DNA of 64,000 nt from Branchinecta lynchi (taxonomy: Eukaryota > Arthropoda > Branchiopoda > Anostraca > Branchinectidae), in NCBI GenBank assembly GCA_023053575.1, contig JAKZAP010000008.1, forward strand, positions 5,846,715-5,910,714, given 5' to 3'. The notes under the pieces were generated by a model, which worked only from the letters and a program-made list of their open reading frames with translations, searched no databases and had not been told where the DNA came from. Shown here piece after piece: positions 9,201-38,600 of this stretch. Numbering within the stretch: position 1 is the stretch's first letter; each line of letters begins with the position of its first letter. A program made the position numbers and the translations under genes.

Positions 9201-12094
9201 GTACTTTTGGTTAAGGGAACTCTGTGTTTGTCCCTCTATTTTCTTATGGGACTTGGTGCTAAAGAACTCTTGAGCAAGATTATCCGTCCTCGACCCGTCA
9301 CTGAATTTCATCAGGGCAATTTTGGTCATAAAGGCGACGTGGTTTGGCTCTCTAGGAATTTGTTCTTGTTCTCTTAACTAGGAGACTTTTTCTAGAAGAC
9401 GTGAGACTGAATGTGAATAAACTAGTTTGGTCGATCCAGATTGGTTCGCTTTTCTGTACCTTGATCTTGCAATTTGTTTGTAACTTATTACGCAGTTAAT
9501 AGAGTACTTAAATTTTTTACGACTTGTCCATGATTCTAAAAAGCTCCAATTTGTCATATCGGTTTAGGACGGTCGCAACTTTATGGTGTGATCAGTTGAA
9601 CATGGGCCATTGTCGGTTTACGGCAATAGCCGAAGCCCGGGCCGCACATTAGTTATAGTTGTTTTTAATCATTAAGTCATGTTACCAGAGTATGTATGAC
9701 GAAAAAAATTCCATGTTTGTCCTCGTCCGTGAAAGAATTTTTCAAAATAAACTGAGTTGAATTGTAACTTTATGGTGTGATCAGTTGCACGTGACCCATT
9801 ATTGGTTTACGGCTATTATCGAAGCGTGGGCCGCTCCATTTCTCCGGCTTGTAATCTCGACGCGAAGTTCAGATTTTCGATTTTCCAGTCGACTTTCCAA
9901 AGCGGATTAACTATGATTGGAAAGACTACTCTGAATTGACTATCTTACCAATCATCTAGCTTTGTCAGTTCTTGAGTTTTCATATTTTTTTATTTTTTTT
10001 TGACGATGATTTTTACGCGTCAGCTTGGAGTAGCGCCTTGTAATCGGAAAAGGGGGAATTGTGTTTATTATGGTGTTCCCTGTATAAAAGAGAATAGTAC
10101 TGCCGTTTTGCTTTGCACCATTCGCGGAATGTAGGGATGGTAGAATTCATCAGTCAGTTTTGGTGCTTTGCCGGTTATATACGCGCTCTCTGTTCAGCGA
10201 GTTGCCTCGCCTGGGTACAAACGGTGGACAAATTAAAGTTTTCTTTCAGTGGACCTGCGTTCATGACATTCAAGATCTCCCACCTCCTTCTAAATCGTCC
10301 AAACGAAACCGCGACGTCGCCGAGGAGTGCGAAGAGGGCTTGCCGAAAAGAGCCAACATAAGCATAGCCCCCGCAACAAGTGGCGTAGCACCCGAGCCAG
10401 TTCTAAGAATAGGCCCAAACTTGGGCAACTCTCGATCTCTGATCGACGATAGTCTTAGTGATTCTGAACATGAGTCCGATGGAGACTATGAAGACTATGA
10501 AAGTGAGACCCCGAGTCCTTTGCTATTGGAAGACTCCGATCCGACTTTCGACGAGCCTGGACTGCCACGTGGCTTAGTTTCCTTGCGAGAGCGACTAGTC
10601 AGTGGACGAGAGGAAGAACATGCGAGATTTTCTCCTGTGATTCCACCTTTGCGGTCGTTTGGACCGTCTTCCGTTGTTGGTACAGTGGGAAGTAATGATA
10701 GTATTGGCCTGCCGTCTCCGGACTATCGAAACTATTCTCCGGATAGGGAGTTGCAAGCTTCTTATGATCGGGTCGAGCAGACTTCTGCCCCTGCATCCCC
10801 CGACCGAAGGCATGTGTCAAGAAGTGGCGGTAATGATCAGCTGGATGGGATAGAGATTAGGAGAGTTGACGAACGGCGGTCTGTCTCTCCGCACAGATTA
10901 CAAAGGGTCCGGGGAATTGTGGACTTGGATATGATTCGTGGTTCTCCCACTTCTGCGCCTGCATCGCCAGATTTGGAGACTGTTGCGAATAATCGTCGTG
11001 TCAGAGGAGACGTTGACATTGACCTGATTCCGGAATCTCCATCTTACGCCCCCGCATCCCCTGACCCTGAAACTAATTCAGGAACCACGCCCATTTCAGA
11101 TCAGTCATTTCCGCTTCATGAAAGAAACGATCCATTTGATATCCCAGAGCCATTACGGACCCGCCCAGATGGTCTGCCCCAGCTGGAAACTGAGACACTT
11201 AGTGCCGTGTTCCAGGATGCGAACTCTGCTACTGGCCCATCAGATCGCAGCAGTAGTAGTGGTCCTTCGACGGCTGACGAAAGGCAGCAGTTGAATATTA
11301 GACGGATTGAAGAGCCAGTTCGAAGCAACCTGTCTACTAGAGCGGTCCAGGTTAGGATTCGGGCTCCACTGAGTTGGGGAGAAGGACCTGACGGTGGTTT
11401 TGGCTTCCAGTTACGATCCAGCACCGACCCTGAGCCACAAGGGCGTGAGATTGAAGTTCGACTTCCAAGTCTTGAGATCCTAGAAGCCCTGCAGACTATC
11501 AGAAACAGAAGGGCCCGTCTTCGGGACGATAATCCTCTGCCCTTCCGAGTTCGGACGAGCAGACCGCTAGGGAGGCCTCAGCGACGTGCTCAGTCAGTTG
11601 ACATCTCAGGGGCATCCACATCTGCCGTATTTGTCCAAGCTGCTTCGGACTTTGCTGCACGCACTGTGATTTATCAAAGGGACCCACGAGTGAGAGGAGA
11701 ACTCCCAGACGTTAGTAGCCGTGTAAGGAGACCTAGGGCTACAGAGCGGTCTACTTCTTATACCATTCACGAAAATGTTCCGAGGTTAACGCATTTCCGC
11801 GAGGAACCTAATATGGGAAGAGGCTTTATAAAGGAGTTATGTTTCTCAGCGGACGGTAGACTAATAGCCTCCCCTTTCGGCAATGGTGTCAGGCTACTTG
11901 CCTTTAATCAGGACTGTTCGGAGATGTCAGATTGCATGGAAGCCTGGAACAGTAGTCCAGTGAAGCTGTACGAATTAGCTGCGTCTATGTGTCATACCAA
12001 CGTTGTGGTATCAACGAAGTTTTCCCCCACCCATTGTATGTTGGTGTCAGGGTGCTTGAATGGTAAAATCGTATGGCACCAGCCTATTTCTTAG
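3007..12094 (+). CDS. DCAF10: DCAF10 (WDR32)-like CUL4-DDB1 substrate receptor, last two coding exons
   Basis: Two exons are spliced in phase 0: 3007-3216 and 10250-12094, separated by a 7-kb intron. The first contains SSLQIHPQGWCAL followed by an acidic SSDDQSE. The second starts WTCVHDIQDL and ends with GRGFIKELCFSADGRLI, TKFSPTHCMLVSGCL and a final WHQPIS. These match, in order, the C-terminal part of vertebrate DCAF10 as I know it (LQLHPKGW, CTCVYEFQEG, GRGYIKELCFSPDGR, TKFSPTHCQIASGCL). DCAF10 is a WD40 protein thought to present substrates to the CUL4-DDB1-ROC1 ubiquitin ligase. The N-terminal exons must lie upstream of the window. Compared with the vertebrate protein, about 500 extra residues sit between the two WD segments. 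Confidence 0.88.
3651..4343 (+). repeat. Direct duplication in DCAF10 intron, split by a hAT MITE
   Basis: About 135 bp beginning ttggtctagaaagtagaaag at 3651 recurs at 4205 with roughly 90 percent identity, ending in the shared gcagctgcatccagttgctt. The first copy is interrupted by the MITE at 3786-4142. The 4151-4204 stretch between them looks like the continuation of the first copy. Confidence 0.75.
3786..4142. mobile_element. hAT-like MITE with 8-bp target duplication
   Basis: Terminal inverted repeats CAGTAGCGTATATT and AATATACGCTACTG match perfectly over 14 bp. They are flanked on both sides by AGTTGCTT (3778-3785 and 4143-4150). An 8-bp duplication with CAG...CTG ends is the hallmark of hAT transposons. 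At 357 bp with no coding frame, this is a non-autonomous element. The interior has C/G-rich 'gcgacag' and 'cctgtcgcc' stretches, also inverted. Confidence 0.88.
4714..5015. mobile_element. Palindromic MITE with CTACACTGTCAGAAG ends
   Basis: The ends ctacactgtcagaagttt and cttctgacattgtag are inverted repeats, flanked by TACTG at 4709-4713 and 5016-5020. The inside is rich in 'gttatctgtta' and 'tatgcataac' palindromes. The same family recurs at 54454-54838, and a loose end is visible near 29800 (cactgtcagaag). No coding sequence. Superfamily not resolved; the 5-bp duplication is tentative. Confidence 0.7.
5452..6701 (+). mobile_element. Family A element, degenerate copy A6
   Basis: The head atggcacttgcagcctttgg at 5452 lacks a perfect hairpin. 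The body has family A modules (gataaaacttgccagg; gaacgagtgatcgatc; gggagttggagtg). The tail aagtgccatatgagctttca ends in gctctt at 6700. It is more diverged than A1 and A2, so older. A reversed LINE 3'-end fragment lies inside it at about 5925-6010 (similar in reverse complement to 9655-9765), and an AT-rich insert extends to about 6240. Confidence 0.65.
6702..7756. other. DCAF10 intron, no feature recognised
   Basis: I see no conserved exon, RNA gene or clear repeat boundary in this stretch. Short open frames on both strands have no recognisable motif. Confidence 0.4.
7757..7985 (-). mobile_element. LINE 3' end with (GAATT)n tail, reverse orientation
   Basis: Read on the minus strand, the segment ends in aataaaagaaattgaattga and further GAATT copies. 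A poly-adenylation-like signal plus a short simple repeat is typical of LINE 3' ends. The LINE at 47097-48735 has a similar ttgaat-rich tail. No coding part is recognisable here. Confidence 0.45.
8955..9445 (+). repeat. Degenerate tandem duplication in DCAF10 intron
   Basis: Two blocks of about 200-230 bp, beginning near 8960 and 9215, share landmarks in the same order: tttgt, 'gggact(agt/tgg)gctaa', 'cttgag(t/c)aaga', 'tttggtcat', 'ctctaggaatttg', 'gttctct', 'gcgagactg(g/a)a' and 'agtttggt(t/c)gatccag'. The copies are strongly diverged. No coding function is apparent. Confidence 0.65.
9586..9840 (+). repeat. Tandem duplication flanking a LINE-like 3' fragment
   Basis: A block starting aactttatggtgtgatcagt at about 9589 recurs at about 9766, continuing through 'ggtttacggc' to 'gggccgc'. 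Between the copies (9655-9765) lies a dispersed sequence also present in reverse complement at 5925-6010. It contains 'cgtccgtgaa' and ends in 'aaaataaactgagttgaa', like a LINE 3' end. The duplication could be a large target-site duplication or an unequal exchange. Confidence 0.55.
10250..12094 (+). CDS. DCAF10: DCAF10 terminal coding exon with giant disordered insertion
   Basis: The acceptor ttttctttcag ends at 10249; the first codon is Trp (WTCVHDIQDL) and the stop is at 12092-12094, giving 614 residues. Residues of about 10-510 are rich in Ser, Pro, Arg, Asp and Glu and look disordered. They include a nuclear-type basic patch (SKSSKRNRD), an acidic run (DSEHESDGDYEDYESE) and a repeated unit of about 32 residues with VRGxVDxDxI followed by SPxxAPASPD (codons near 10780, 10960 and 11050). 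The last 105 residues are the closing WD40 strands (FIKELCFSADGRLIAS; TKFSPTHCMLVSGCL). The frame stays open for 1.8 kb without stops, unlike its surroundings. An upstream ATG in the same frame (10160) is intronic. Confidence 0.88.
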   Translation, partial: WTCVHDIQDLPPPSKSSKRNRDVAEECEEGLPKRANISIAPATSGVAPEPVLRIGPNLGNSRSLIDDSLSDSEHESDGDYEDYESETPSPLLLEDSDPTFDEPGLPRGLVSLRERLVSGREEEHARFSPVIPPLRSFGPSSVVGTVGSNDSIGLPSPDYRNYSPDRELQASYDRVEQTSAPASPDRRHVSRSGGNDQLDGIEIRRVDERRSVSPHRLQRVRGIVDLDMIRGSPTSAPASPDLETVANNRRVRGDVDIDLIPESPSYAPASPDPETNSGTTPISDQSFPLHERNDPFDIPEPLRTRPDGLPQLETETLSAVFQDANSATGPSDRSSSSGPSTADERQQLNIRRIEEPVRSNLSTRAVQVRIRAPLSWGEGPDGGFGFQLRSSTDPEPQGREIEVRLPSLEILEALQTIRNRRARLRDDNPLPFRVRTSRPLGRPQRRAQSVDISGASTSAVFVQAASDFAARTVIYQRDPRVRGELPDVSSRVRRPRATERSTSYTIHENVPRLTHFREEPNMGRGFIKELCFSADGRLIASPFGNGVRLLAFNQDCSEMSDCMEAWNSSPVKLYELAASMCHTNVVVSTKFSPTHCMLVSGCLNGKIVWHQPIS

Positions 12095-21406: not shown

Positions 21407-21464
21407 ATGGCAACAGGAAGTTACGTGCTAACGATTCTTGTATTATTCTCTGCATTTGTTTACG
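21407..21464 (+). CDS. Ly6 gene exon 1 (signal peptide)
   Basis: It encodes MATGSYVLTILVLFSAFVY, the signal-peptide core, and ends in phase 1 at tacg|gtatgt. The longer frame that reads through the donor is intronic. Confidence 0.85.
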
Positions 21465-24400
21465 GTATGTTTCCCTTTATTTTATTTAGCAGGAATTTAC
21501 AACCGATAAGTGGACATACGGGCTTGGGAATTCATTTACAATTTTTACTTACTTTAGTTGACCGTCCCATACGTTTTCGGTGGCCGTCTGGGGGCCATTT
21601 TCCTCGCCAACACATGAATACGCTATCTGTAGGCTACTATGCTCTTCGGCTTTCTTGAGCTTGTCCGAGAAGACGGGTGAGATGATGTTTTTCGATCGTC
21701 TCATATATTGTGGATGCGATTTTAAAACTAATAAAGATATTCGTATATGTTTATTAGTAATAAATATATTCGTATATGTTTGTATATGAGGTATTCAGAA
21801 AATAAAATAAAGGTTATTTATCAATGATTGGGTTAAAGGACCCCTGAATGAACAGTACCAAGTATCATCCCCAGAGGCGTCACAAGTGCATTTTCGGTGG
21901 GGGGGGTTGCAGAGCAAAAATATTACCGAATCTTTCAAAAATTTTACCGAATCCTAGAACTAAGAATTTGAGCTTTAAATTATGGAACAGAGACGATTAC
22001 GTAGGAAGAGTAACAATAAAGGGCAGCATGAAAGACGATAAGCCAACTATTAGGCAGCGTTCTGGCGAAGGTCACGTGGAGAATATACTGCCGGGCGTGA
22101 TTGCAGTAACATCTTCTACCTCTTATAGCCAATAGAAAATTAAATCGAGCGCCGCAGGCGAAAATTTTCGAAATCATTTTTTTTGCTGTAGGCTAAAACT
22201 AACTACTTTCAAATTCTATCATTTACCGTTGATTAAACACCGAGACTCCAAGAAGTTCCCGAAACCGGATGGAGCGACGTTCCGTCAGTAGCAGTAACTG
22301 TAGTCTAGTCAATATACTACCCATAATCACATAAAGTGAGGGCCGCAGGCGAAATTTTTGTTTGCTTTTAATTTTAATCTTAATTTCCATCCAAATTCTA
22401 GCTTTTATTCTTTCGAAATCTCAATCCTAAAACTGGCTTAAAATAGAGAGTATTACGAAAAGTGCTGCAAGCGGATTTTCGAAATATTTATGAATAGATT
22501 TTCTTTTTGGAATCCAAAATAAAAGTAAGGACTATCGATGATATCATAGATCATCCCTTTTGTCTGTGACCAGTGCTTCACTCGACGTCTTCTGAGTTTC
22601 GAGGTTCGTGGTAACTTCCGAATCCTGGTAATTATAACGAATAAATCACCGAATTCCACTTATTATACCGAATAAGTTTAGGCCGATAGCATGTTCGGGA
22701 TTCTGTATAACTAGCGTATCGCGGTTATTATACCGAATTGTTTCGGTATCGAAAGACTACCGAACAATATTCATATTCGGTATACTTTCGTCGAAACCGG
22801 AACAAATCGTGGTTAACTTGCTAATCCTGGAAAGTATACTGAATAAATTACCGAATCCTAATCATGATACCGAATAATTTTGAACCAATAGCTTATTCGG
22901 GGTTCTGTGTAACTACGGTATCTCCATAAATATACCGAATAGTTCCTGCATCGAAAAATTACCAAATGATTTCAGTAAGTTCTCTCACCAAATTCGTGAT
23001 AACTACCGAATACTGACAAATATACCGAATCCCGATCATTATACCGAAGAGATTTGTACAGATTGCCTATTTATTATTCTATATAACTATCGAATCCCCT
23101 TAAATATATTGAACAGTTCTGCTATCGAAAAAATACCGAACAACCGGCCCAAAATTTTACCGAATCTCAAATTCGGTAAAAGGGGGGGTGCTGCACCCCC
23201 CCCCCCTTGCGACGCCCCTGGTCATCCCTATCTGTATGACTTCCGTTAACATTGCCTGAAAACCCAATCTAAATACGAAATAGGGTTTCCAAGCTATGAT
23301 TTTTGCTCCATTTTGCACCTTTCCTTATTCCAGTACCGAACAGTTTTAGAAAGGAACAAATATCTCCAATCCCCCCTTCTTCTGGAATATTTTTTAACAA
23401 GTTAAGCCCAAACGTGTATCTAGAAGAAATTGCAATACGATCCTGCCAGCGCTGTACAAGATTTGAATGAATTGCGCTTTTTGTCTTGGAGTCTCCATGC
23501 GCAAACCTCCAGAAACGAAAATCCCTATTTTGAAAACGTCACGCTCAGGAGAAGAATGCTCTCCGTGGCCATGTCTGTAAATGCATTCTCCATGGTGTGT
23601 TCAAGTATGGTTTGATCGTTCAGGTGTCCTTTAAGGATTGAATATATAGTAGTATTGTATTTATAGTAGCCAAGTAGAATGGTTTTATAAGCAAACGCAG
23701 TGAAGAGTTTGTGAAGAGCATATGTATAGCTTCGACTTGTTAACTCGATTATTTGTAACTAAATGAGAGATGTTTATGAAATAAAAGGTTATTTACTTAT
23801 GATAGTTGAGGATGGAGTTTTGACCTTCGGTTAATGAACTTGATTATACTTTCACAATATATGTGAGCGCTTGGGCATTTTTTTCAAACTTGTTCATCTG
23901 CAACGCTCAGTTTCAACACTTATGCAAAATGTGATTAGGGTAGAGCTTCTCTATTTTGGACACAGTGAAATGAAGCGCCTCTGGTTCTCCCCTCCCCATT
24001 CTAATAAAAGTCGTCGTTATGGGACTGATAGGAAACCTAAATCTTTACTTTGAGAAAACCATTACAAAACTTGCTAGGGTGTGTAGGCCTACCTAATAAT
24101 GTACGTTACTAGGTTACTAGAAGTCTTGAACCGTTTTTATGGCACTTGCAGCTCCGCTCAAGTGCCATATTCCGATCACTTTTCGGTCGGTCGATCCACT
24201 GTTCTCGAGTTAGGGTACTTCCAGAAGGGCTAGGACGATGAAACTTAGCAGGCATATTAGGGACCTGACCAAACTAACTTGGAAATAGTCATTTGCGCGA
24301 TCCGACCACCGTTGGAGGAGGGGAAGTAGGCGGAGTCCGAAAAATAGGGGCGTGCATAACTTTCAAATGTGTAGTAGGATCTTAATGAAACTTTATATCT

Positions 24401-27400
24401 GGAAAGACCTCGTGTCTCAGATGTCTCAGTTCAGGTCCGGACCGGATCTGATGAATATGGGGGGGGGGGGGGGTCTGATGAATCTCAGCTAGTGGAGCTA
24501 TCGTGATGAAACTTCGTGGGAAGAACAAGCACAAGCTCTAGATCCATAACTGACAGAACTAAATCGTATTCGGACACTTACACTGCGGGGGGAGTTGGAG
24601 GGGGGTTCCGGAATTCCGGTGATCCGTAGTTAGTGTACTTCCAGGTGGGCTAGGACGATAAAACTTGGCAGTTATATCAGGGATTCGAACAGATTAACTT
24701 AGAAAGAGTCGCTCGCCTGATCCGACCATCGTGGGGGAGCGGGATACGGCGGAATCCGGAAATTAGTGGCATGAATAACTTTCGAACGGGTTACTGGATC
24801 TTACTGAAACTTCATATCTTGAAAGACTTCACGTCTCAGATGTACCATTTCTAGTCCGGACCGGATCCGATGAACGGTGGGGGGGGGGGGGGGTCGGAGG
24901 GGAGAACCGGAAATCTTGTGACATGCATAGAGTGGAGCGATCAGGAGGAAACTTGGTGGGGTACAGGCACAAGTCCTAGGTGCATTAGTGACAAAATCGA
25001 ACAGGATTCGGGTAGCTGTAGGGGGGTGTCCGGAATTCCGATGATCGTGACTTAAGGTACTTCCAGGTGTGCTAGGACGATACAACTTTGCTGAAGCATT
25101 AGAAACTTGACCATTGGTTAGACATCGTCACTTCTCCAATCCGACCATCCCTTGAAGAACTGGCAAAACACAAAAAGTACTTTTTAAGCAAAATTTACTT
25201 TTTCACGATCTCCATGAGCACATGATCCTTTTTGCCTCAAGGGTTTTGCTTAGAAATTATTTTTAAGCACCCTTAAAGGGCACATCTTAACCGAAAAGTG
25301 AAAAAAATATCTCCATCACTTCCATCTGATTCGGCCTTGCAAGTGCCATATGCGCTTCCAGCTCTTGTTGTTTAGCGATTTTTGTGTTCGATTTCTGATC
25401 TTTGTTTCAGTGCCGAACTGATTTCTCAGAATTTAATCAGCAATGTAACCAAGCTGAAACTAGCGTTCCGGCTCAGTTGTCAGCCTCTATGTTGAAACTA
25501 AATAGACGGATTGTTCTCTACCCATCGAAATGGATGCGAATCAATTGGCAGTATTGACCAGTTATAAGGCTAGGCTTTGACTCGAAGGTGCGAACCGACT
25601 AATAGGATGCGAGACTTATTTTGTTGTAAAAGTCTGAAACCTTTATGATCCCGTTTCTGAGTGAACTTCCTTTCATTTTTTTCAAACAAAATTTTTTACC
25701 GTTGATGTTTTAGGGTTGGTTCCTCACAGGTTAGCTTCTGGCCAATGAAGATACTGCTGATTAAAAAAGTTCTTATTGGTCGAACTGATCGGAATGTCGG
25801 ATTTTAGGATTTGAAATATTTTGGTTGATTGCGGAATAGCTTTATTTCACGAGTGTGGGAAGCGGTAAAAGATTTGCATTATTTTTCACGCCAGTAGACC
25901 AGCTGAGCGAGTCAAGATATGTTGTTATTTTTCTCTGACGATGAATAATTCCCAAAATTTCAGAACCGACAAAATTCATGCATGAGCTAATCAAGTGATC
26001 AGCGGAGGGCACATAACTTGTTTATTCGGATATTTTGTTGTGGTTTACTTCGATGAATAGTTCGTTCGTAATCCGGTGAAAAGCGGTAAGTCAAGAACGA
26101 GCTGGTTGCGTAAATGCAAGTGAATAAAGGGAAAACAAAGTGCAAGACCCAGCGATCAAGCTGTTTTCGCCTAGAGCGATCAGTTTTCTCGAACGCCCTC
26201 GAAAATATGGATAAACGTTCCTTGCGAATCATATTTGATCGCTATAAACCAATAAGCTAGCTGAGATTTATTCTGTCGATATCTCGGCCCTCCATTTATT
26301 TCGACCCAAAATTTATTGTTACTGCATGTTACTGCTGTTTGACTATTTGGCGTTTTCATGACACCCAGTGTCCGATGATACCGAGGACTTTTACCATGAC
26401 GAGTAAACCAGAAAGCAATTTTTTCTATTTACAAGTCTAGGACTACAATCAAGAAGAAGAAGGATTTATGACGCACTGCCCAAGGGCATAAGTTCAGTAG
26501 AAAAGGACAAGGAAATATAAAACAATCACAAAACACTGAAAAATATTTTGTTGGAATCAATGTCGAATCAATGTCTTTTCCGTCGGTCGGTCGGTCGGTC
26601 GGTTAGTCCGGTGTTTGCGAGTTAGGGTACTTCCAGATATGCTAGGACGATGAAACTTGGCAGACGTATTAGGGATCCGACCAAACTAACTTGGAAATAG
26701 TCACTTGCCCGATCCGACCATCGTGGGGGGAGGGGGAGGTTGCGGAATCCAGAAAATAGGGACATGCGTAACTTTCGCATGGGTGATCGGATCTTAATGA
26801 AACTTGATACATGGTAAGACCTCGTGTCTCAGATGTCTCATCTCATGTCCGGACCGGATCCGATGAATCTTAGGGGGAGTCGGAGGGGGAGCCGGAAATC
26901 GTGTGAACTCTCGGAGTGGAGCGATCTGGATGAAACTTGATGGGAAGAACTAGCACAAGCTCTAGATAAATAACTGACAGAACTGGACCAGATTCGGACA
27001 CTGTGGGGGGAGTTGGAGGGGGGTTCCAGAATTCCGGTGATCCGTAGTTGATGTACTGCCAGGTGGGCTAGGACGATAAAACTTGGCAGGCGTATCAGAG
27101 ACCCGACCAGATTAACTTGGAAACAGTCACTCGCCCGATCCGACCGTCGTGAGGGAGGGGGAGACGGCAGAATCCGAAAATTAGTGGCATGCATAACTTT
27201 CGAACGGGTTATCGGATCTTAATGAAACTTGATATCTTGAAAGAACTCCTGTCTCAGATGTACCATTTCAAGTGCGGACCGAATCCAATGAACTGGGGGG
27301 GGGGGGGGTGGAGCCAAAATCTTGTGATACGCGTAGAGTGGAGCGATCAGGATGAAACTTGATGGGACGTACAGGCAGAAGTCCTAGGTGCATCAGTGAC

Positions 27401-30400
27401 AGAATTGGATCGGATTCGGGTACCGAGGGGGGGGGCTGTAGGGGGGTGTCCGGAATTCCGGTGATAGTGAGTTAATGTACTCCCAAATGTGATAGGACGA
27501 TAAAACTTTGCTGGAGCATTAGAACCTTGACATCGTCACTTCTCCGATCCGACCATTCCTTAAAAAACTCATCTTAACCGCAAAATACAAAAAATACTTT
27601 TAAGCAAAATTGATTTTTAGCACCCTTAAAGTGCGCACCGGAAAGGGAAAAAAAACTTTTGACCGTCACTTCCAATCTCAGACCCAGCCTTGCAAGTTTG
27701 GCGCATCTTAACCGAATACTCCCATCTGACACAGCCTTCCGGGTTTTTGTTTTCCTTCTTGATTCCTTTTGCTTTCTGTCTCCTATTTTTATATTTAAAG
27801 TGAACCCATAGGTTGAATTTTCAGCCCCCTTAATTTTTTTCTTGCTGGGGTATTTCTTACAACATATGCTTGCAAGTGCCATATGAGCTTACAGCTCTTG
27901 TTTCTGGTTTATTTTTTTTCTGGTTTATTTGTCATGGCCGTAAATGTCCCTTGTATAAGTTCCATCATCACATGAATGTCTAAACTAATAAGACTAATTT
28001 CGAGGAAACGGCACAACCCTTTTCTGTACAGCAATACTCATGTCATTTGTTACAAACGCAAAATCTAATCATGAAGAATATACATGTAACAAAGAAAACA
28101 AAATAGAATACCGTAGTCTTTTATTAATGCCCAAATCGTGGACACGCCAAATAGGGGGTACTCGTCAAACAACAGTAAAATAAATCTTGTCAAACTAATT
28201 CATCTTTTGTCATCAAACTAATAAATACAAAGAAAAAACAATTTAAAAAATATAAAATAAGGTACGGTAAACACACACGTACAACAAATATTGCAGCCCC
28301 AGAAGCTATAGGCTTGCGAGGTGCTTAATTACGATAACGTACCCAGTCGCGCTTTAGCCAGAACATAATTAACGAACTGCTAAACGCTAAAAATGCGAAG
28401 GAAAATAAGGAAAAAACAAAAAAAGAAAATGATCTGGCTACCCTGTAGGCACGTATCCGCTAGTTATCCGCCGAAGCGTTAGCGTTAATTATCTTCTTTC
28501 GTAGTTGTTGTCGCTATCGATTGCTTCAAATGTGTTTCTGTTAATGGAGACAATCCCGCCTGCGAGGACCCGTTTCACAATAATTACACGACGGACTTGC
28601 TAGAATCCTCGTGCATGGGCGGGAAGAAAGGAAGGAATGGTCTTTTTCCTGCTAGCTCCTGTCTTAAATTAGCTGGCGTTTATGGTGAGTCTTTTTTAGT
28701 CTGTGTCGAAGCTAAGGATAACATGACAATGGTGGCGCCAGTATAAACTCGTTAGCTAGGTTGTGTCCAGAATACACTCCTTTTTTAAAGGAATTGCCCC
28801 AGTAGCTAAAGTTAAAAATAGGCAACAAAGGAAATGACCAAAAAAGGATAGCTACACCCTCAGATTTTTGGTAACGTATAATACATGGATGGCCGCCCGT
28901 TCGTTAAATTTTATGTCCGATGACGGAATATTGATTTATGAACATTTTATGTGTTATTTTCACGAATTATAACACTGAAAGCACCTATACACTTGCCGGA
29001 ATGTAAGTCACAACCCCTCCGGCGTCTAAGTGAGTGCACTTGCGGTTACTAGCTATAATTAGTGTGAACGTTGACGCAGGTTCATATTTCTCTCTACGCC
29101 CTGAAGAGGACCCTTTCCAAGAAGAGACGAAGTAAAATTTCACCGTCGAATCGTTTAGCGTCATCAGACATGATTTGCAGTTAGCTTGGGCTAAAGAAAT
29201 ACTGTACTTGTACTAGCGAGCAGTCTCTACGAAGATCCCATTATTCCAGTACACTGTCGTTACCAAAAACTGTTGAAATTCTAAATATAGCCGTCGACCA
29301 CGTACTATTAAATGTAACTGTAATCTTGACAAATGTGTGCATGTCAGTAGCCTACTCACCAATTTTTGTTTTGTTACCATATTTGGCAGAGCAAAAGAGT
29401 GTGGTTTATCAGCCTACTATTTACAGTGCATTACAGTTGATTACAGTGCGGTTAAATTACTATTCTAGCTCTAGATACTTTGATTAAATTAAGATTCTTA
29501 GTTCGTTTTATCATTTCCGTCTGTGAGCATTCAATCAGCATCATAAAGTACCTATAATCTCTCTTAGCTGACACACGGCAGTCCCTTACTATCAGAAGCT
29601 GTTCGATGGACAGTGGAACTTTGACTTTGGACACGGAACTTGTCAGAATGTCGCATTGTGGAAGTTTTATACTTGACGGAAGGTACCGGAGATAGAAGTT
29701 ATAGATGATAAGAAAGTTATAAATGATGCATGTAGATGATGATATCATAGCTGATAGTTGCTTTCAATCTATAACCTGCTGAGCTGTCTGTCGATCGGCC
29801 ACACTGTCAGAAGCGTTGTAACATGTATGTCGTGATATGGGTAATTTCTTTATGAAATCGCTCATAACGATGAGTGATTTCAACAGATTTTGAGCATTAT
29901 TTTGTTAGTGATGCAGACAATTTTTCTTATGAGGTTATGTTTTATTAACCCCTATGCATTATGTTTGCGTAAGACGTTAAATTAAAAATGGTTTGCAATG
30001 TTGCTTGTAAAGAAAAGATAACACTTACAGGCCATACTGAATAGTGATGTTCTCTTTAGTCCAATTCAAGTATTTGGGAATGATTATTGATGAAATGATT
30101 ACATGGAAAGATCATGTGAGAGCTCTTTCTATTAAAATGTTACGTGGAGCAGGTGCTCTGAGCAGATTAAAACACATTATTCCACAACAATCGCTCAAAA
30201 CTTTATACTACACCCTTATTTCATCATATCTGGAGTATGGATGTTCTCTTTGGTCCAATTCATTTAAATATAACACACACAAAATCCAAGTAATCCAAAA
30301 CCGTGCGATAAAAACATTATTCTTAAATCAACATTCAACAATTGAATCATTTCGTCTTGCGAGCGTTTTGAATGTTTACAAAATGTCAAAGTTTCAGGTA

Positions 30401-33400
30401 GCAACTTTAGTTTATTCATGTATTAATTCATTAGCACCTTTAGGAAGAAGAGAACTAAATATGTTTCATGTGACCTCGGAGTACCATTCATACCCAACTA
30501 CTTCTTCTCAGAGAAATATACTCCTGTCAGAAATACGCCATAGTCATCGAGGAGCTCTTTCATTACGACATGTTGGCGTAGAAATATGGAACGTGTTGCC
30601 GTGCTGTGTAAAAGAATCAGTGTCTTTGAGCGCTCTCCAGAAAAAGATGAAAAACCATCTTCTTGATTCTTGAAAGTTAGTGTTATTTATTTTGTTCTCT
30701 TGTTCTCTTTTAATATGGATTTGTTGTCGCGTCATACGCGGATAGGGTTGTCACAACTCACAATTGATTTTCGTAAGAGATGAAATTTGTCTTCTTTAGA
30801 GGTATTAATTCGTTTGAGTTCCTGAACTGGCCATTTTAGAGCCTTTGGCATGTTGGTAGTTCCGGGATTCGTCTGTTGATTTTTTTTTTTTTTCGTTTTT
30901 ACAAAAAATAAAGTATGGACCCCTAGCGGATAGCATCCAAAGTCTTAATTGTTGAGATTGCAAATCATTGTGTTAAATATCGCCGAACCTCTGACAGTGC
31001 TGCTACCTGCTCGAAACTAAAAGAATGTCATGGCAGAACATTGACTGACAACGTTTTTACTTTAATCGACCGGTTTATCAGGTTAAAGATTTGCACATTG
31101 ATTGCATGGATGGTGTTCATGTTAGTTTTCAGATCATGTGTTATGGTGGAAGGATTTTGTAGTTTTAGTACTCGTACCTGTTTCTTTTCTAGACGACACC
31201 GGTGAAACTTTGTTCATCCGAGGTTGTGCTTTAGATAGTGGGACATTAACCACAGATACTGAGATAACCCGGATGTCACATTGTGGAGGCTTTATCTACA
31301 ATGACAGGTTGTGTTTACTCTTTTTTTTTTTTGGTTTTGTTGGCGTTGGTGTCAGGAATGGAGTAGGAGGTGTGGTAATTTTTGTCGCTTGATGAAAAGA
31401 ACGGAGGCTGGATTACCTTTTCGAAATGGCAGGCACTGTCTAGGGAACCGGGAGCCGTAATTTATGTCCTACGGGCTACGGAACCGGTGGTTCTCACGGA
31501 AACTAAACCATATGAGCTACGATTCCGGGATCTGACGTCATTAACTAACGGAAACTTGTATATTCTGGCTCCCGTTCCGGTAGTAAGTGGAAATAGCTCA
31601 CGGAAACTTCATCGCACCAGCTTCTCGTCCGGTAGTCTCACGGAATTGTGTACTCAGAAGCTAGGGAGCCGGTAGTTCATACCGGAAACTGTATAATTGG
31701 AGCTTCTGTTCCGGTAGTGTCTACGTGGCATATAGAACTCACGGAATAGTTTGGATGAGAGCTAGGATGCCGGGATTTTCACTGTCTTAGAGAAAATAGC
31801 ATGGGAAAAAATCAACTACCGGAACCCATATATTGAGAGCTAAGGTACCGGTAGCAACTACTATTTGGTTGAAAATGACCAGCTCACGGACACAGACGGC
31901 TATGGGCTAGGGACAAAAATAAATAAAATTGAAGTCAAGGACCCATGTCACTGCAGACTAGGAAGCCGGGAGTGAATATTTTTAACTCACGGAACCCAAC
32001 TTCTGCGGGCTAAGGTTCCGGTAAGGCCAAAAAATTAAGATTTTTGAACTGGATTCCGTGAGCTGTAACGGACTCAAAATCCATATTGACACATGTCCGT
32101 GAGCTTATAATATTAATTTTTGGCACTACCGGAGCCCCAGCCCGCAGGAGTTGGGTTCCGCAAAAATATTCACTTCCGGTTTTCTAGTCTGCACTGACAT
32201 GGGTCCGTGAGTTCATTTTTTTTTTTTTTTTTTTGGCATTACCGGAACCCTAGTCCATAGCCATCTGTGTCCGTGAGCTGGTCATTTTCAACCAAATAGT
32301 TTTTGCTACCGGTACCTTAGCTCTCAATATATGGGTTCCGGTAGTGCTTTTCCCATGCTATTTTCTCTAAGTCAGTGAAAATCCCGGCATCCTAGCTCTC
32401 ATCCAAACTGTTCCGTGAGCTCTATATCCCATGTTGACAATACCGGAACACAAGCTCCAATTATATAGTTTCCGGTATCACCTACCGGCTCCCTAGCTTC
32501 TGAGTACATAATTCCGTGAGACTACCGGACGAGAAGCCGGTACGATGAAGTTTCCGTGAGCAATTTCCATTTACTACCGGAACGGGAGCCAGCACATACA
32601 AGTTTCCGTTAGTCTATGACGTCACATACCGGAATCGTAGCTCTCATGGTTTGAATTCCGTGAGAACTACCGGTTCCGTAGCCCATAGGCCATAAAGTAC
32701 GACTCCCGGTTCCCTAGACAGTGCCTTTCGAAATTGTGACCTGATACTTGGCACAGGCGACGAGATTCGCCATCCCTCATGTAGCTGTAATAGTTATTGC
32801 CTTGGCCTTGTGTCAGCTCATCATTCTTTGTGGTACTCTTAATGTTTTTCCCTGCTATGAGTCAATTTTAGAAATTTCATTCAATCCCTTGTAAGGTATC
32901 AGGAACATAGCTTCACCGGCATGGCGTGTTGAGATTAGTATTTGTTCAGTCTCTTCGAGATAGGGATTGTATTTACTAACTCGGTAACTGCCATGAATGT
33001 CTTTATAAACGTAAGTTAAACCCCAATTCCAGTTTTCTAAATTAAATCCCAAACAATTCTTGTCCTTTACTTCCAACTCTTGCCAACTCACCAACTACTT
33101 CCCCCGATTCAAATCAGGAGGAGTATATCCAGGATAAATAGAAGGAGGACTTTCATATGCCGCTATTTTGACACAGCGCCGCCACTGGCCCCACGAATGA
33201 GGATGTACAGTGAGGAAACCGGTTTTATACAGTGTTAACTGTGGTGTGGCTGAAGCTAGCGCGTTTTTTTTATGCTGAGGGTATTGGTGAATGGTCACAT
33301 CTTTTTGGGATCCCAAAACGTAAGTGGAGGGATACCTATGACATCGCTAAAGTTGTCCGTCTGTCCGTCCGTCAGTGAGCACGAGAACTCTCGAAGAGAT

Positions 33401-35170
33401 TGAAATATTTTGATGAAACTTGGTGTGACGATTCTTTGGGTCAAGAGTAAGGTCGAGTTCGTAGATGGGACCTGTAGCCCTATATTTGGGGGTGGGGGAG
33501 GGGGTTCAAATTTAAGGGACAAACAAAATATTTTTAAACAGCTAATTTGATAGTCCATTATGGGGTAAGAAGACATGCTGAGCACGATGGTGAAAATCAT
33601 TTTCTCGCCTGACAAGTAGTTCGTCCGGAATCCGGCAATACCGGAAAGTTTGTTAAAAGTAAAACTTTCAATTGAAGTTGATTAAATGTTTGATTTAGGG
33701 GTAAGAAGACATGCTGATCATGATGGTGAAAATTATTTTTTCGCCGGACAAGTAGTTTGTCCGGAACCCGGCAAAAACCGGAACATTTATTCAAACAATG
33801 TTTACACGGATACGTCAGCTCTGATTTTTCATCAGCGATATTTCGGCCCTTCTTGGCAAGGGTCCTCGTCAGGCTGTCAATCTTCTTGTTCAACTTCGGG
33901 GAAGGAAACAAACCTGGGTTTGACAGGTGAGGAAACAAACCTGGGTTTGACAGGTTTGTTTCCTTCCCCGAAGTTGAACAAGAAGATTGACAGCCTGACG
34001 AGGACCCTTGCCAAGAAGGGCCGAAATATCGCTGATGAAAAATCAGAGCTGACGTATCCGTGTAAACATTGTTTGAATAAATGTTTCAAAGTCAGCTTGG
34101 GCTCAAAGAATATTTAAAAACCGGAAAGTTTGTTAAAAGTGGAAGTTTCATTTGAAGTTGGTTAAATGTTTGATTTAGGGGTAAGAAGACATGCTGAACA
34201 CGAAGGTGAAAACTATTTTCTCGCTGGACAAGTAGTTCGTCCGGAATCCGGCAAAACCGGAAAGTTGGTTAGAAGAAAAAGTTTCATTTGAAGTTGATTA
34301 TGGTGAAATCCATTTTCCGTCAAATCCATCCGACGGTGAAAACCATTTTCTCGCCGTACAACTAGTTCGCCTGGAATCCGGCCAAAACCGGGAAATATGT
34401 TAAAAGCAAAACTTTTATCTGAAGTTGATTAGATGATAGATTTGGGTGTAAGAAGAGACGTAGAGACGCTGTGTCCGTATATGACAATCATGTTTTACCC
34501 GGACAAATAACTAGTCCGGAATCCGGTTGTACCCGCATTTTTTTGTAAGTCAAAGTTTTATTTGAAGTTGATTAGATGTTTCCTTATAGGGATAAGGATA
34601 TACGTTAGATTCGTTTCTGAATTTTCTTTTGTTGCTGGAAGTAAAGCAGGAAGTTTCGGTCAGTATCGTCAAAATAGATATGGCTTATAGAGGTATGGAT
34701 AGATTAGATAGAATATCTGAACTTGGTTTTCTCTAATGATTAGCATGGCGAAGAATGGATCTGGCGAAGACAGACCCAATTGTCTGGATCAAATCTTAGA
34801 TTTTTGGGATCCCATCGACACCTTTGGTCTTGTTTCATTCTGACGCGCAGCAAGTAAGTCCAACCAACCCTTTAACTCCACTTTCCGTCTTGTCAGTTCT
34901 AACCTGGTTTTATTCGATAAACTGGATCCCGTGGATTTAAATTCTTAGTAATTTTGTTGTTTCAGTGGTATCATTAAGTCGCATTGCGTATAAATATGAC
35001 GTCTTGTTTTGCAGTCTCATCGAAAAGTTCTGATAATGACTTTACTATTTAGGTATGTGTATGGCTGTCTGCAGAGCTGTGATGACGTAGATGGATGCAA
35101 TGATAGTTCAGTGGTCCATCCCGTCTTAAGTATATTACTCCTCTGTGTTTTGAAGATCATATTCATATGA
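21407..35170 (+). CDS. Ly6/uPAR three-finger GPI-anchored protein with alternative third exons
   Basis: Exons: 21407-21464, 28505-28684, 29568-29682 (3a) or 31193-31307 (3b), 35053-35170. Phases are 1, 1, 2 and all sites are GT-AG. The product is 156 residues: signal peptide 1-23, ten cysteines at 26, 29, 39, 56, 72, 91, 110, 123, 127 and 133 (the spacing of the Ly6 fold, ending Cys-Asn), sequon N46-Y-T, and a hydrophobic tail 138-156 after NDSS suited to GPI attachment. The motif ACEDPF is common in arthropod Ly6 proteins of the Qvr/boudin type. Such proteins act outside the membrane, often trafficking or modulating channels or septate junctions; which role applies here is not visible. The ATG has a strong Kozak context (gccaccATGg), and a ttcag acceptor at 21382 suggests an upstream non-coding exon. 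Confidence 0.88.
21872..23220. mobile_element. hAT-like non-autonomous element with ACCGAAT array
   Basis: Left end CAGAGGCGTCACAAG and right end CTTGCGACGCCCCTG are inverted repeats. The flanks aTCATCCC (21864-21871) and gTCATCCC (23221-23228) give an 8-bp duplication with one mismatch. G/C runs sit just inside each end. 'gccgcaggcgaaa' occurs near 22152 and 22330, and the right half is dominated by irregular 'taccgaat' repeats. It lies in Ly6 intron 1. No coding frame. Confidence 0.8.
23229..24138. other. Ly6 intron 1, nothing firm recognised
   Basis: A 61-codon frame at 23430-23615 has no recognisable motif. An aataaa with an AT-rich context lies near 23780. No clear repeat boundary. Confidence 0.35.
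24139..25367 (+). mobile_element. Family A element A3
   Basis: It follows TTTTT. The head is atggcacttgcagctccgct followed by caagtgccatat, then a GGTCGGTCGATCC microsatellite. The body has G-run modules with 'gatgaaacttagcaggcata'. The tail is caagtgccatatgcgcttcc followed by agctCTTG|TT. A stretch of 'aaaaagtactttttaagca' near the 3' end is shared with A4 but not with A1 or A2, so A3 and A4 form a subfamily. Confidence 0.78.
25368..26574. other. Ly6 intron 1, nothing firm recognised
   Basis: AT-rich sequence with a degenerate palindromic MITE-like piece near 26226 (catatttgatcgctataaac). A frame after a tttcag at 25410 (CRTDFSEFNQQC) resembles a cysteine-rich exon but does not fit the phases of the Ly6 gene. 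Confidence 0.35.
26575..27900 (+). mobile_element. Family A element A4, head incomplete
   Basis: It starts at a GTCGGTCGGTCGG microsatellite without the hairpin head. The modules match A3 in order, and the tail is caagtgccatatgagcttac followed by agctCTTG|TTT. A clear relative of A3. Confidence 0.75.
27901..28504. other. Ly6 intron 1, nothing recognised
   Basis: AT-rich stretch up to the exon 2 acceptor (cttctttcgtag). I see nothing specific. Confidence 0.4.
28505..28684 (+). CDS. Ly6 gene exon 2
   Basis: Acceptor cttctttcgtag and donor tatg|gtgagt; 180 nt, phase 1 to phase 1. It encodes residues 20-79, including DCFKC, ACEDPFHNNYTT and five of the ten cysteines, with the sequon NYT. No shorter frame explains this conserved spacing. 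Confidence 0.9.
29098..29165. repeat. Family D fragment
   Basis: The text ctgaagaggaccctttccaa and 'gaatcgtttagcgtcatc' is one arm of the dispersed family D hairpin. Confidence 0.5.
29568..29682 (+). CDS. Ly6 gene exon 3a (alternative)
   Basis: Acceptor ctctcttag, donor ggaag|gtaccg; 115 nt, entering in phase 1 and leaving in phase 2. It encodes ADTRQSLTIRSCSMDSG and then TLTLDTELVRMSHCGSFI. It aligns without gaps to exon 3b (24 of 39 residues identical), keeping both cysteines (91 and 110) and RMSHCG. It has no stops and intact splice sites, so it looks functional. Confidence 0.82.
30044..30675 (+). pseudogene. 5'-truncated LINE, reverse-transcriptase C-terminal region
   Basis: An open frame of 209 codons with the motif series FKYLGMIIDEMITWKDH, ISSYLEYGCSLW and IQNRAIKTLF. 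This is typical of the C-terminal thumb region of jockey/CR1-type non-LTR retrotransposons. The catalytic domain is missing. At the 5' junction, 23 bp at 30048 (gatgttctctttagtccaat...) repeat an internal stretch at 30240 with one mismatch, suggesting template switching at insertion. The stop is at 30673. The frame is intact, so the insertion is young. It sits between exons 3a and 3b of the Ly6 gene. Confidence 0.82.
31193..31307 (+). CDS. Ly6 gene exon 3b (alternative)
   Basis: Acceptor tttcttttctag, donor gacag|gttgtg; 115 nt with the same phases as exon 3a. It encodes DDTGETLFIRGCALDSG and then TLTTDTEITRMSHCGGFI. Since 115 is not a multiple of three, splicing 3a to 3b would shift the frame of exon 4, so a mature mRNA should contain only one of them. 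Confidence 0.85.
31432..32725. mobile_element. Foldback element, copy 1 (1.3-kb inverted repeat)
   Basis: Almost the whole 1294 bp is one inverted repeat: it begins GGCACTGTCTAGGG and ends CCCTAGACAGTGCC, with arms of about 620 bp. TTTCGAAAT flanks it (31419-31427 and 32726-32734); four extra bases (ggca) sit at the left junction. The arms hold regularly spaced 'ccggtag', 'ctcacgg' and 'accggaa' motifs. It starts 125 bp after Ly6 exon 3b. A 9-bp duplication suggests a Mutator-, Rehavkus- or Merlin-type transposase (inference). No coding frame. Confidence 0.88.
33307..34832 (+). mobile_element. Family X element X3
   Basis: It follows TTTTT (33302-33306) and starts GGGATCCCAAAACGTAAGTG, then the GTCCGTCTGTCC microsatellite. 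The body has modules with 'gacatgctgaacacgatgg' and 'cggacaagtagttcgtccgg'. The end is tttgggatcccatcgacacc, then tttggtCTTG|TT. The flanks read cacatcTTTTT and TTtcattc, again a T-run target. A 300-bp hairpin is nested inside (33783-34086). It lies in Ly6 intron 3b-4. Confidence 0.82.
33783..34086. repeat. Near-perfect 300-bp hairpin (family D) nested in X3
   Basis: The arms from aacatttattcaaacaatgt to its inverted counterpart match almost without change, around a centre with two copies of 'ggaaacaaacctgggtttga'. Each arm carries the family D core (cttcttggcaagggtcctcg). The arms translate to the same peptide on both strands (SLTRTLAKKGRNIADEKSEL, then PCKHCLNKC), which shows near identity rather than coding use. 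Arm identity implies recent formation or gene conversion. Confidence 0.8.
35053..35170 (+). CDS. Ly6 gene exon 4 (last cysteines and GPI tail)
   Basis: Acceptor ctatttag (ending 35052). It encodes YVYGCLQSCDDVDGCNDSS, then a hydrophobic segment (VLSILLLCVLKIIFI) to the stop at 35168-35170. The CN dipeptide is the signature last cysteine of the Ly6 fold, and the tail suits GPI addition near NDSS. Confidence 0.9.
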
Positions 35171-35244: not shown

Positions 35245-35250
35245 AATAAA
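35245..35250 (+). terminator. Poly(A) signal AATAAA of the Ly6 gene
   Basis: gattAATAAAagttttgtatttg lies 75 bp after the Ly6 stop and 400 bp before the NAGK start, which fits cleavage between the two tightly spaced genes. Confidence 0.6.
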
Positions 35251-35680: not shown

Positions 35681-38600
35681 GTAAGCGGTATTCATCTTTT
35701 GCTCAGAAGGTTGGGTTCGCAGCCAATTTATGGACCGACGTCCCAACAAGTATTAGATAGATAGATATTTTTATTGATCTGACTCGTAGAGCCGGCATGG
35801 CACTAAATACGTCGACCATTACAATAAAGTGTTAAAATACTTGAATATGTACAGTTATTACATACAAGAAAACAAATCACTTGGAATTCACTCTTCTTCT
35901 TTTTTTTTTAAGTCGTCTTTTCAACGAGTTGGTTAGTCACCATCGTGTCCAGAGTTGACATTAGTATTTTAAATAGATAGTAGCCTAATTACCGAAGGGT
36001 TTCCAATTCAATTTTTGTGTAGACCAAGCGTCCGGTGCCGGCACCAGTTGTCACGTGTTACTCGTGTTAGAATATTGAAATCAGCATATTTAGAAGCGTC
36101 GTAATATGAATCGCTTAATTCGTTGACGGTACCGGGAAAAGGGTTCCACCAATTGGCGGGGAGTGGGTAACTTTTCGGTTAGGCACTGTCTAGGGAACCG
36201 GGAGTCGTACTTTATGTCCTACGGGCTACGGAACCGGTAGTTCTCACGGAAACCAAACCATATGAGCTGCGATTCCGGGATCTGACGTCATTAACTAACG
36301 GACACTTGTATGTGCTGGCTCCCGTTCCGGTAGTAATTGGAAATAGCTCACGGAAACTTCATTGCACCAGCTTCTCGTCCGGTAGCCTCACGGAATTGTG
36401 TATTCAGAAGCTAGGGAGCCGGTAGTTGATACCGGAAACTGTATAATTGGAGCTTCTGTTCCGGTAGTGTCTACGTGGAATACAGAACTCACGGAATAGT
36501 TTGGATGAGAGCTAGGATGCCGGGATTTTCACTGACTTAGAGAAAATAACAGGGGAAAAAAGCCACTACCGGAACCCATATATTGAGAGCTAAGGTACCG
36601 GTAGCAACTACTATTTGCTTGAAAATTACCAGCTCACGGACACAGACGGCTATGGGCTAGGGTTCCGGTAGTTACGAAAACAAAATTGAACTCACGTACC
36701 CATGTCAGTACAGACTAGGAAACCGGAAGCAAATATTTTTAACTAACGGAACCCAACTTCTGCGGGCTGGGGTTCCGGTAGGGAAAAAAAAAATAAGATT
36801 TTTAACTGGATTCAGTGAGCTTTACCAGACTCAAAGTCCATATTGACACGCGTCCGTGAGTTTGTGATTTTAATTTTTGGCACTACCGGAACCCCAGCCC
36901 GAAGGAGCTGGGTTCCGTGAGTCAAAAATATTCACTTCCGGTTTCCTAGTCTACACTGACATGGGTCCGTGAGTTCAATTTTTTTTTTTTTCGTCACTAC
37001 CGGAACCCTAGCCCATAGCCACCTGTGTCCGTGAGCTGGTCATTTTCAAGCAAATAGTAGTTGCTACCGGTACCTTAGTTCTCAATATATGTGTTCCGGT
37101 AGTGAATTTTTTTTCTCTAAGTCTGTGAAAATCCCGGCATCCTAGCTCTCATCCAAACTATTCCGTGAGTTTTATATTCCACGTAGACACTACCGGAACA
37201 GAAGCTCCATTTATACAGTTTCCGGTATCAACTACCGGCTCCCTAGCTTCTGAGTCCACAATTCCGTGAGGCTACCGGACGAGAAGCTGGTGCGGTGAAG
37301 TTTCCGTGAGCTATTTCCAATTACTACCGGAACGGGAGCCAACACATAGAAGTTTCCGGTAGTTAATGACGTCAGATCCCGGAATCGCAGCTCATATGGT
37401 TTGCTTTCCGTGAGAACTACCGGTTCCGTAGCCCGTAGGACATAAAGTACGGCTCCCGGTTCCCTAGACAGTGCCTTTCGGTTATATTACCAAATATAAA
37501 ATATAAATCTGTTTTCGTGCATTTTAGGGTCGTAAATATTTGTGAACTGTTTCACGGAAAAGTAACTGACAGTCACCTTAGATAATTTGAAGATTATTTC
37601 AGTGGCGGGTCTCATTCAGTGATTCATCTTTATGACAAACATGGAAAGCTGCTCGTTGAAGTAGAAGGGCCCTCCACCAGCCATTGGGTAAGCGGAATGT
37701 ACCTTTACAACTCTTTCTGATATTATGATGGCACCAACTGGTGTAATATGCGCGTTAACTCTTGTTGAGAACGTTTATTTGCTGTATAACATCTTTGCAG
37801 ATAGCTATGCACAGCTACCTGGACAGCTACACATATAAATAAATAAACATGCAAGTTTCTTACACAGTCATAATAATTGGCGATTTCATTGCGATTTGTC
37901 ACTCTCTACTTATGCCTACATGTTCGTGTAAATGAACCGGCGATTGATTGCGCTAGCTGGTGTGTTTTCTTAGGAGATCTTCGTACTGATAGTATGTTTT
38001 GGTTGGGGCGAATCCGCCTAGTAGTCCCAAGTTATCTCAGCAAATATACACCAGGATCCTTATACCACTTGATTTCGCTTTGTTTTGGGTTCTCGTGCAG
38101 GAGATCTCGGCGACTGAACACATTGAACGTGTCCGAAAGCTTTTTGGTGCTGCAAATGTTGCATTAATGCTGCATTTTCTTTATTTTTTTTGTCCGAAAG
38201 ATCTTTCCTTTTTTCTTCTCTGACACTTCTAGAATACGAAAATTTAAGTCAGGAAGAAGAAGAAGAAAAAAGAATGAGCTGCATAAAGCTGACAAAATGG
38301 ATCAGCTACTGATATCCAACCTTCTTATCTTCTTATCTTTCCTTTCTTCGTTGGCCAGCCCATGATCACCAGTTTTCTTAGAATTTGGAATGTTTGCCGA
38401 ATTGTCAGTTATCTTGTTGAATTTATTTTGTTTGCCCCCGAAAATACTGAGAGAATCGCCGTACTCCCCAGTTTCATCTTGAAAATTCAGCATAAAATTT
38501 AGCATTCTTGCTGAATTTTGTTATGAATCTTAATGCTGCATTAATTGAGCGAAAATTTAAGTCCGAAAGCAAAATGCTGAATTAATTCAGCATTTTCGTT

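Follow-up and report, generated by a model that had tools for sequence, protein, structure and literature searches.

In a 64,000-nt stretch of the Branchinecta lynchi genome (assembly GCA_023053575.1, contig JAKZAP010000008.1, positions 5,846,715 to 5,910,714 of the forward strand; hereafter the window) we identified a five-exon gene of the Quiver (QVR)/Ly6 type (+ strand of the window, coding sequence 21407-35170), whose third exon is present as two homologous copies, designated 3a (29568..29682) and 3b (31193..31307). We consider it probable that exon 3 was tandem-duplicated in or before the early Pancrustacea and that its copies were kept as alternatives, with a productive transcript taking either 3a or 3b. 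Strict mutual exclusivity of the two is what we infer from the reading frames and from the automatic isoform labels of homologous proteins.

The exon 3 pair and its host gene

Both copies measure 115 nt, lie between AG and GT, are entered in phase 1 and left in phase 2, and are separated by an intron of 1510 nt (29683..31192, +). They agree at 66 of 115 nucleotides and at 24 of 39 aligned residues, having in common the cysteines 91 and 110 and the motif RMSHCG; of the 15 differing residues (80, 83, 84, 85, 87, 90, 92, 93, 100, 104, 105, 112, 115, 116 and 117), 11 fall within the two clusters 83-93 and 112-117. Lengths, phases, identities, retained residues and clustering all stand as they were described in the first-pass annotation, which had been made from the letters of the DNA alone. 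When the protein of the 3b form was compared with the window (tblastn), the 3a locus was matched at E 2.4e-13 and the matches below E 1 consisted of the five gene pieces only (exons 1, 2, 3a, 3b and 4); among these full-length-query matches exons 1, 2 and 4 are single-copy in the 64 kb, and no third copy of exon 3 was found in the window. The 49 nucleotide differences over 38 codons are distributed as 16/6/27 across codon positions 1/2/3, and when set against an expectation of one third each, those at position 2 are too rare (P 0.0007) and those at position 3 too common (P 0.0014). Because the differences avoid position 2 and favour position 3, both copies seem to have been under selection for the protein that they encode.

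Inclusion of 3a alone or of 3b alone gives a product of 156 amino acids (aa), inclusion of both gives 121 aa, and omission of both gives 91 aa. When 3a and 3b are joined, a stop is reached within 3b, approximately 105 nt upstream of the last junction, a position at which nonsense-mediated decay (NMD) is expected; transcripts with both exons would be degraded in this way. The pair had been proposed as mutually exclusive; the copies are homologous and equal in length and phase, and the full-length product comes from single inclusion. The accompanying argument, that use of both exons shifts the frame of exon 4, holds in so far as no full protein results, but the stop is already encountered inside 3b.

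The exons together outline a single-domain protein with a putative signal peptide and membrane anchor. Exon 1 (21407..21464, +; coding part only, without the 5' untranslated part) supplies the start codon (preceded by GCCACC) and the signal peptide, a hydrophobic leader judged by eye, in the same frame as exon 2, and exits in phase 1 through the donor ACG/GTATGT. Exon 2 (28505..28684, +; acceptor TTTCGTAG, donor ATG/GTGAGT) encodes the first half of the LU domain with cysteines 26, 29, 39, 56 and 72, and is identical to the Artemia protein P0031 at 47 of 55 residues. The alternative exons (both on the + strand) encode residues 80-118, which take in finger 3 and, from finger 2, the tip and the descending strand; the 3b type, here with the weak donor CAG/GTTGTG, is the commonest among the listed homologues. 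Exon 4 (coding part 35053..35170, +) contributes the last three LU cysteines, the CN motif and a hydrophobic tail (hydropathy 3.07) predicted by eye to be of the glycosylphosphatidylinositol (GPI) type; its stop codon TGA (35168-35170) is followed downstream by AATAAA at 35245. The framework cysteines number ten (26, 29, 39, 56, 72, 91, 110, 123, 127 and 133, the last in CN), with one extra in the tail.

In Pfam the gene product matches a single family, Quiver (PF17064; u-PAR/Ly-6-like domains), with an alignment that spans the whole profile (1-86 of 86) and scores of 22.9 bits (3a form) and 26.7 bits (3b form), both just under the curated cut-off of 27.3. Seven homologues were compared with the same profile: two were above the cut-off, four below it by at most 2.3 bits, and P0119 gave no match at E 0.01. 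The identification as a Ly6/three-finger gene accords with this match, full in length and below the cut-off in score. A sequence search of solved structures returned one match (a Rieske protein, E 0.24), which was discarded.

Distribution and age of the two exon types

Homologues were assembled from three queries, namely the 3b form (best 120 of 464 listed), a 3a-type alignment (best 120 of 538 listed) and the 42-residue 3a segment (11 proteins, the search being dependent on exact shared words); pooled, they amounted to 160 different proteins, the organisms named being arthropods. In the constant parts the nearest protein is that of Artemia (63/73 residues), followed by Daphnia and one further protein (60/73), in a comparison of the 142 proteins that could be parsed (18 of the 160 could not), a ranking that points to a branchiopod, or to some other crustacean, as the bearer of the gene. 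Typing by L100 and L115 divided the 160 listed proteins into 16 of the 3a class, 137 of the 3b class, 6 mixed and 1 without the motif; typing by alignment score gave 17 of the 3a class, the additional one being a mixed Hyalella sequence. The 3a class comprises Artemia franciscana P0031, proteins from three Daphnia species (P0121, P0122 of D. pulex, and P0129), the full-length Daphnia-type P0123, six read-through open reading frames (ORFs) with a Daphnia-type segment (P0124-P0128 and P0130), the mantis shrimp Oratosquilla P0131, and the decapods Cherax P0132, Homarus P0133, Palaemon P0134 and Penaeus monodon P0135. In P0124-P0128 the segment is bordered at both exon boundaries by unrelated sequence. 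Five of the 3a-type proteins bear an isoform label: X2 in Artemia, Oratosquilla, Homarus and Palaemon (in the last case in the UniRef name), and X3 in D. pulex. The 3b class includes Daphnia P0004, P0014 and P0077 and Penaeus P0070 and P0108, and no winged insect or chelicerate among the 160 listed proteins fell into the 3a class.

The two D. pulex proteins P0122 (3a) and P0077 (3b) are identical in the parts encoded by exon 2 (55/55) and exon 4 (18/18) and agree at 23 of 40 residues in exon 3; the same holds for P. monodon P0135 (3a) and P. vannamei P0070 (3b), with flanks of 55/55 and 18/18 and an exon 3 identity of 21/39. The identical flanks of the D. pulex pair, together with the five isoform labels, support the earlier suggestion that 3a and 3b are alternative exons of one gene. 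Furthermore, two gene models hold both types in the order 3a then 3b, as in the window: that of the springtail Orchesella (P0021, typed 3b) has a 3b-type segment preceded by most of a 3a-type one, and that of the prawn Macrobrachium (P0072, typed mixed) has the first 17 residues of the decapod 3a, some 20 residues that fit the frame-shifted rest of 3a (judged by hand from the protein), and then a 3b-type segment. On the basis of the isoform labels and of these two models we favour one gene with alternative exons over paralogues. An arrangement in which 3a and 3b are parts of two separate genes, tandem or nested, or of transcripts that each have a separate start, would be in keeping with the frequent tandem clustering of Ly6 genes (available text of PMC6600238), but we regard it as hardly credible here, the least probable of the alternatives weighed: exons 1, 2 and 4 are single-copy in the 64 kb (matches below E 1), neither exon 3 possesses a start, signal peptide or last cysteines of its own, and the 3a and 3b products share their flanks in Daphnia and Penaeus.

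The 3a exon of the window is identical to the Artemia 3a (isoform X2) at 31 of 39 residues, and to its own 3b at 24. In a tree of 44 exon 3 segments (39 columns; drawn from 41 of the 160 proteins, among them 8 of the 16 in the 3a class, P0121 and P0124-P0130 being left out as near-copies or fragments), ten rows to which we had assigned the 3a label (the window, Artemia, two of Daphnia type, Oratosquilla, Cherax, Homarus, Palaemon, P. monodon, and a 28-residue piece of Orchesella cut by eye) are set apart from the other rows by a branch that has 98/98 support; the labels need one change on this tree, and none of 500 label shuffles was as low. The two types are fully separated by position 100 and almost so by positions 114, 115 and 117 (3b counts per column without the two amphipods described below). 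Comparison with related species, which the first-pass annotation had named as a check, has in this way yielded both types in Daphnia and Penaeus proteins and a single 3a/3b split on the tree. The pair spans Collembola, Branchiopoda and Malacostraca, and its duplication looks as old as the early Pancrustacea. Within the window, the regions around 3a and 3b gave short matches only (best 15 nt at E 0.33) and no clear intron similarity, which likewise argues for an old duplication. A recent duplication was rejected on this poor similarity around the exons and on the grouping of the 3a-type segments of branchiopods, malacostracans and the springtail.

Three kinds of departure from the two types were encountered among the homologues. 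The amphipods Hyalella (P0138) and Trinorchestia (P0148) have a mosaic exon 3, with a 3b-like TTDTEI core and a 3a-like end (KLEGK or KLDGK), perhaps through gene conversion or through a merging of functions after the loss of one copy. The mayflies Neocloeon (P0025) and Cloeon (P0098 and P0116) combine the 3b residue at position 100 with the 3a residue L at position 115. Lastly, in Mythimna loreyi P0001, the top-scoring match of the 3b-form search, part of exon 2 (and not exon 3) is repeated, which is either a partial duplication or an annotation artefact.

The fingers affected by the proposed exon swap

Structure models of the Artemia 3a protein (mean predicted local distance difference test, pLDDT, 64.2) and of a Daphnia 3b protein (60.7) are both of low confidence but agree in their strands. 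In Artemia numbering, the strands 69-77 and 83-90 flank the exon 2/3 boundary and are followed by 107-113 and 116-125. A fold search based on the 3b model was uninformative, and in the fold-search lists the receptor ectodomains for transforming growth factor beta and bone morphogenetic protein were intermixed with LU proteins. According to the available text of PMC6600238, LU genes have an intra-domain intron at the tip of loop 2. Because exon 3 begins in the tip of finger 2 and also covers finger 3, the swap would alter more than one finger, and the earlier claim that a single finger would change gives way to an alteration of two. The exchange would retain the cysteine core and modify finger 2 in its tip and descending strand and finger 3 at its end. 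Loop 2 of SLEEPLESS is needed for the complexes with Shaker and Dalpha3 and for nicotinic receptor inhibition (available text of PMC4735452). Since the swapped finger 2 is the loop that SLEEPLESS requires for binding, a change in the target choice of the protein would be the most likely consequence of the swap. The outcome would be two GPI-anchored isoforms that differ in what they bind; as in the case of SLEEPLESS, their targets would most likely be ion channels or nicotinic receptors.

Possible control of exon choice and relation to known systems

By matrix score, the donors of exons 1, 2, 3a and 3b score 3.62, 5.94, 0.27 and -2.81, and the share of + strand GTs in the window that score as high is 1.8%, 0.3%, 10% and 30%, respectively. 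The splice sites, which had been called intact, are GT-AG at both exons, but the donor of 3b is weak and that of 3a, although above it, is middling. Low-scoring donors are common at regulated exons, and we suggest that the choice between 3a and 3b may be regulated by cell type or stage, through these weak donors and trans-acting factors. Two devices of exclusion were looked for and not found: U12-type splice sites, which U2/U12 incompatibility would require, are lacking (GT-AG throughout, and none of the four acceptors has a U12-like branch motif within the preceding 60 nt), and the middle intron, at 1510 nt, is not of the short kind required for steric exclusion. A scan for competing intron pairings (of the docking-site/selector type known from Dscam) detected no competing 9-mers in any of the three layouts examined, for which the null means were 0.07, 0.14 and 0.065; with a single locus this is a weak test.

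That 3a could be an unused or decaying duplicate in B. lynchi, with only 3b being spliced, is very improbable: it is open, phase-matched and identical at 31 of 39 residues to an Artemia isoform, codon position 2 has too few of the differences between the copies, and its donor outscores that of 3b, which together outweigh the middling quality of this donor and the predominance of 3b (137 of the 160 listed proteins). Somewhat less remote, though still unlikely, is the possibility that the exons are alternative without being strictly exclusive, a sizeable share of transcripts containing both and serving, as unproductive NMD targets, to set the amount of protein. The position of the stop (by the rule on the distance to the last junction), the joining of both exons in the automatic models of two other species and the failure to find an exclusion device in the window would all fit such an arrangement, but the two models look artefactual, with 3a truncated in Orchesella and seemingly frame-shifted in Macrobrachium.

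Several observations weigh against a conserved pair of mutually exclusive exons in one gene. The flanks of D. galeata 3a and D. pulex 3b are as identical as those within D. pulex, and because flank identity is equal between species, flanks alone cannot separate one gene from recent paralogues; moreover, D. pulex P0122 and P0077 carry different gene names. The 'isoform X' labels are automatic predictions, and at none of these loci did the two isoforms share a locus name. In the models of Orchesella and Macrobrachium a single transcript contains both exons (with the truncation and apparent frame shift of 3a just mentioned), and the weak scan of the window revealed no competing intron pairings. 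Finally, the 3a type is not universal, no listed winged insect or chelicerate being classed as such, and the structure models are of low confidence (mean pLDDT 64.2 and 60.7).

Beyond the probable duplication and alternative use of exon 3, we put forward with considerable reserve, as a possibility, that the pair switches a QVR-type prototoxin between two specificities. Duplication of the exon that encodes the target-binding half would have created this switch in the pancrustacean ancestor; crustaceans and springtails would have kept it and the line to winged insects lost it, and the two isoforms would serve different cells, with different channels or receptors as their targets. A switch of the pancrustacean ancestor would have been retained for several hundred million years, and if it existed, work on Drosophila would reveal only half of the ancestral system.

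The gene resembles quiver/sleepless (QVR/SSS) of Drosophila (PF17064) in its single LU domain, signal peptide, hydrophobic tail and full profile match, but its scores lie just under the curated cut-off, and the likeness to Drosophila qvr is at the level of the family. The word 'exon' is absent from the available text of PMC4735452 on QVR/SSS. Typical LU genes consist of a signal exon and two exons for the domain (PMC6600238, available text). The present one shares with them the phase-1 intron at the loop 2 tip; it departs from them in that its second domain exon is divided once more, in phase 2, and the first of the resulting parts occurs in two copies. The pair itself resembles mutually exclusive exons born of tandem duplication, as described in the available text of PMC6071210 (equal length, homology, same phases, one copy per productive mRNA). 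Cases of this kind include nAChR alpha6, Mhc and Dscam, and human LY6G5C is among the annotated clusters of three (PMC6071210, available text).

The first-pass annotation knew of no described case of this exact arrangement in the Ly6 family, and within the literature searched (mostly titles and abstract openings, with few subscription papers) we found no invertebrate Ly6 gene reported to have a mutually exclusive loop exon. The available main text of a Daphnia magna isoform study (PMC11061156) makes no mention of this locus, quiver, sleepless, Ly6 or mutually exclusive exons, and six crustacean locus names had no occurrence in the literature searched. As far as we have seen, what is new here is a conserved finger swap in a Quiver-type Ly6 protein by means of mutually exclusive exons, which are themselves well known. 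The diversity of Ly6 proteins is usually credited to gene duplication, and a conserved splicing choice would, if true, represent a second route; a change at the finger tips with the disulphide core kept could then retarget a surface modulator cell by cell. The proposal is directly testable, as RNA data and genetics exist for Daphnia, which has both types, and for Artemia, which has 3a.

Further elements were noted within and around the gene. The intron between 3a and 3b contains a 209-aa ORF (30044-30673, +) without a Pfam match, which reads like the end of a non-LTR (long terminal repeat) retrotransposon polymerase. Long inverted repeats occur in the last intron and beyond the gene (31431-32741, 33782-34085 and 36166-36999), with 379-nt arms at 92% and a related downstream copy, and with a pair of 135-nt arms at 100% complementarity; they are probably foldback elements. 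Elsewhere in the window, a 644-aa ORF (10160-12094, +), which resembles a DCAF10-type gene, has a weak C-terminal WD40 match (18.8 bits, below the cut-off).

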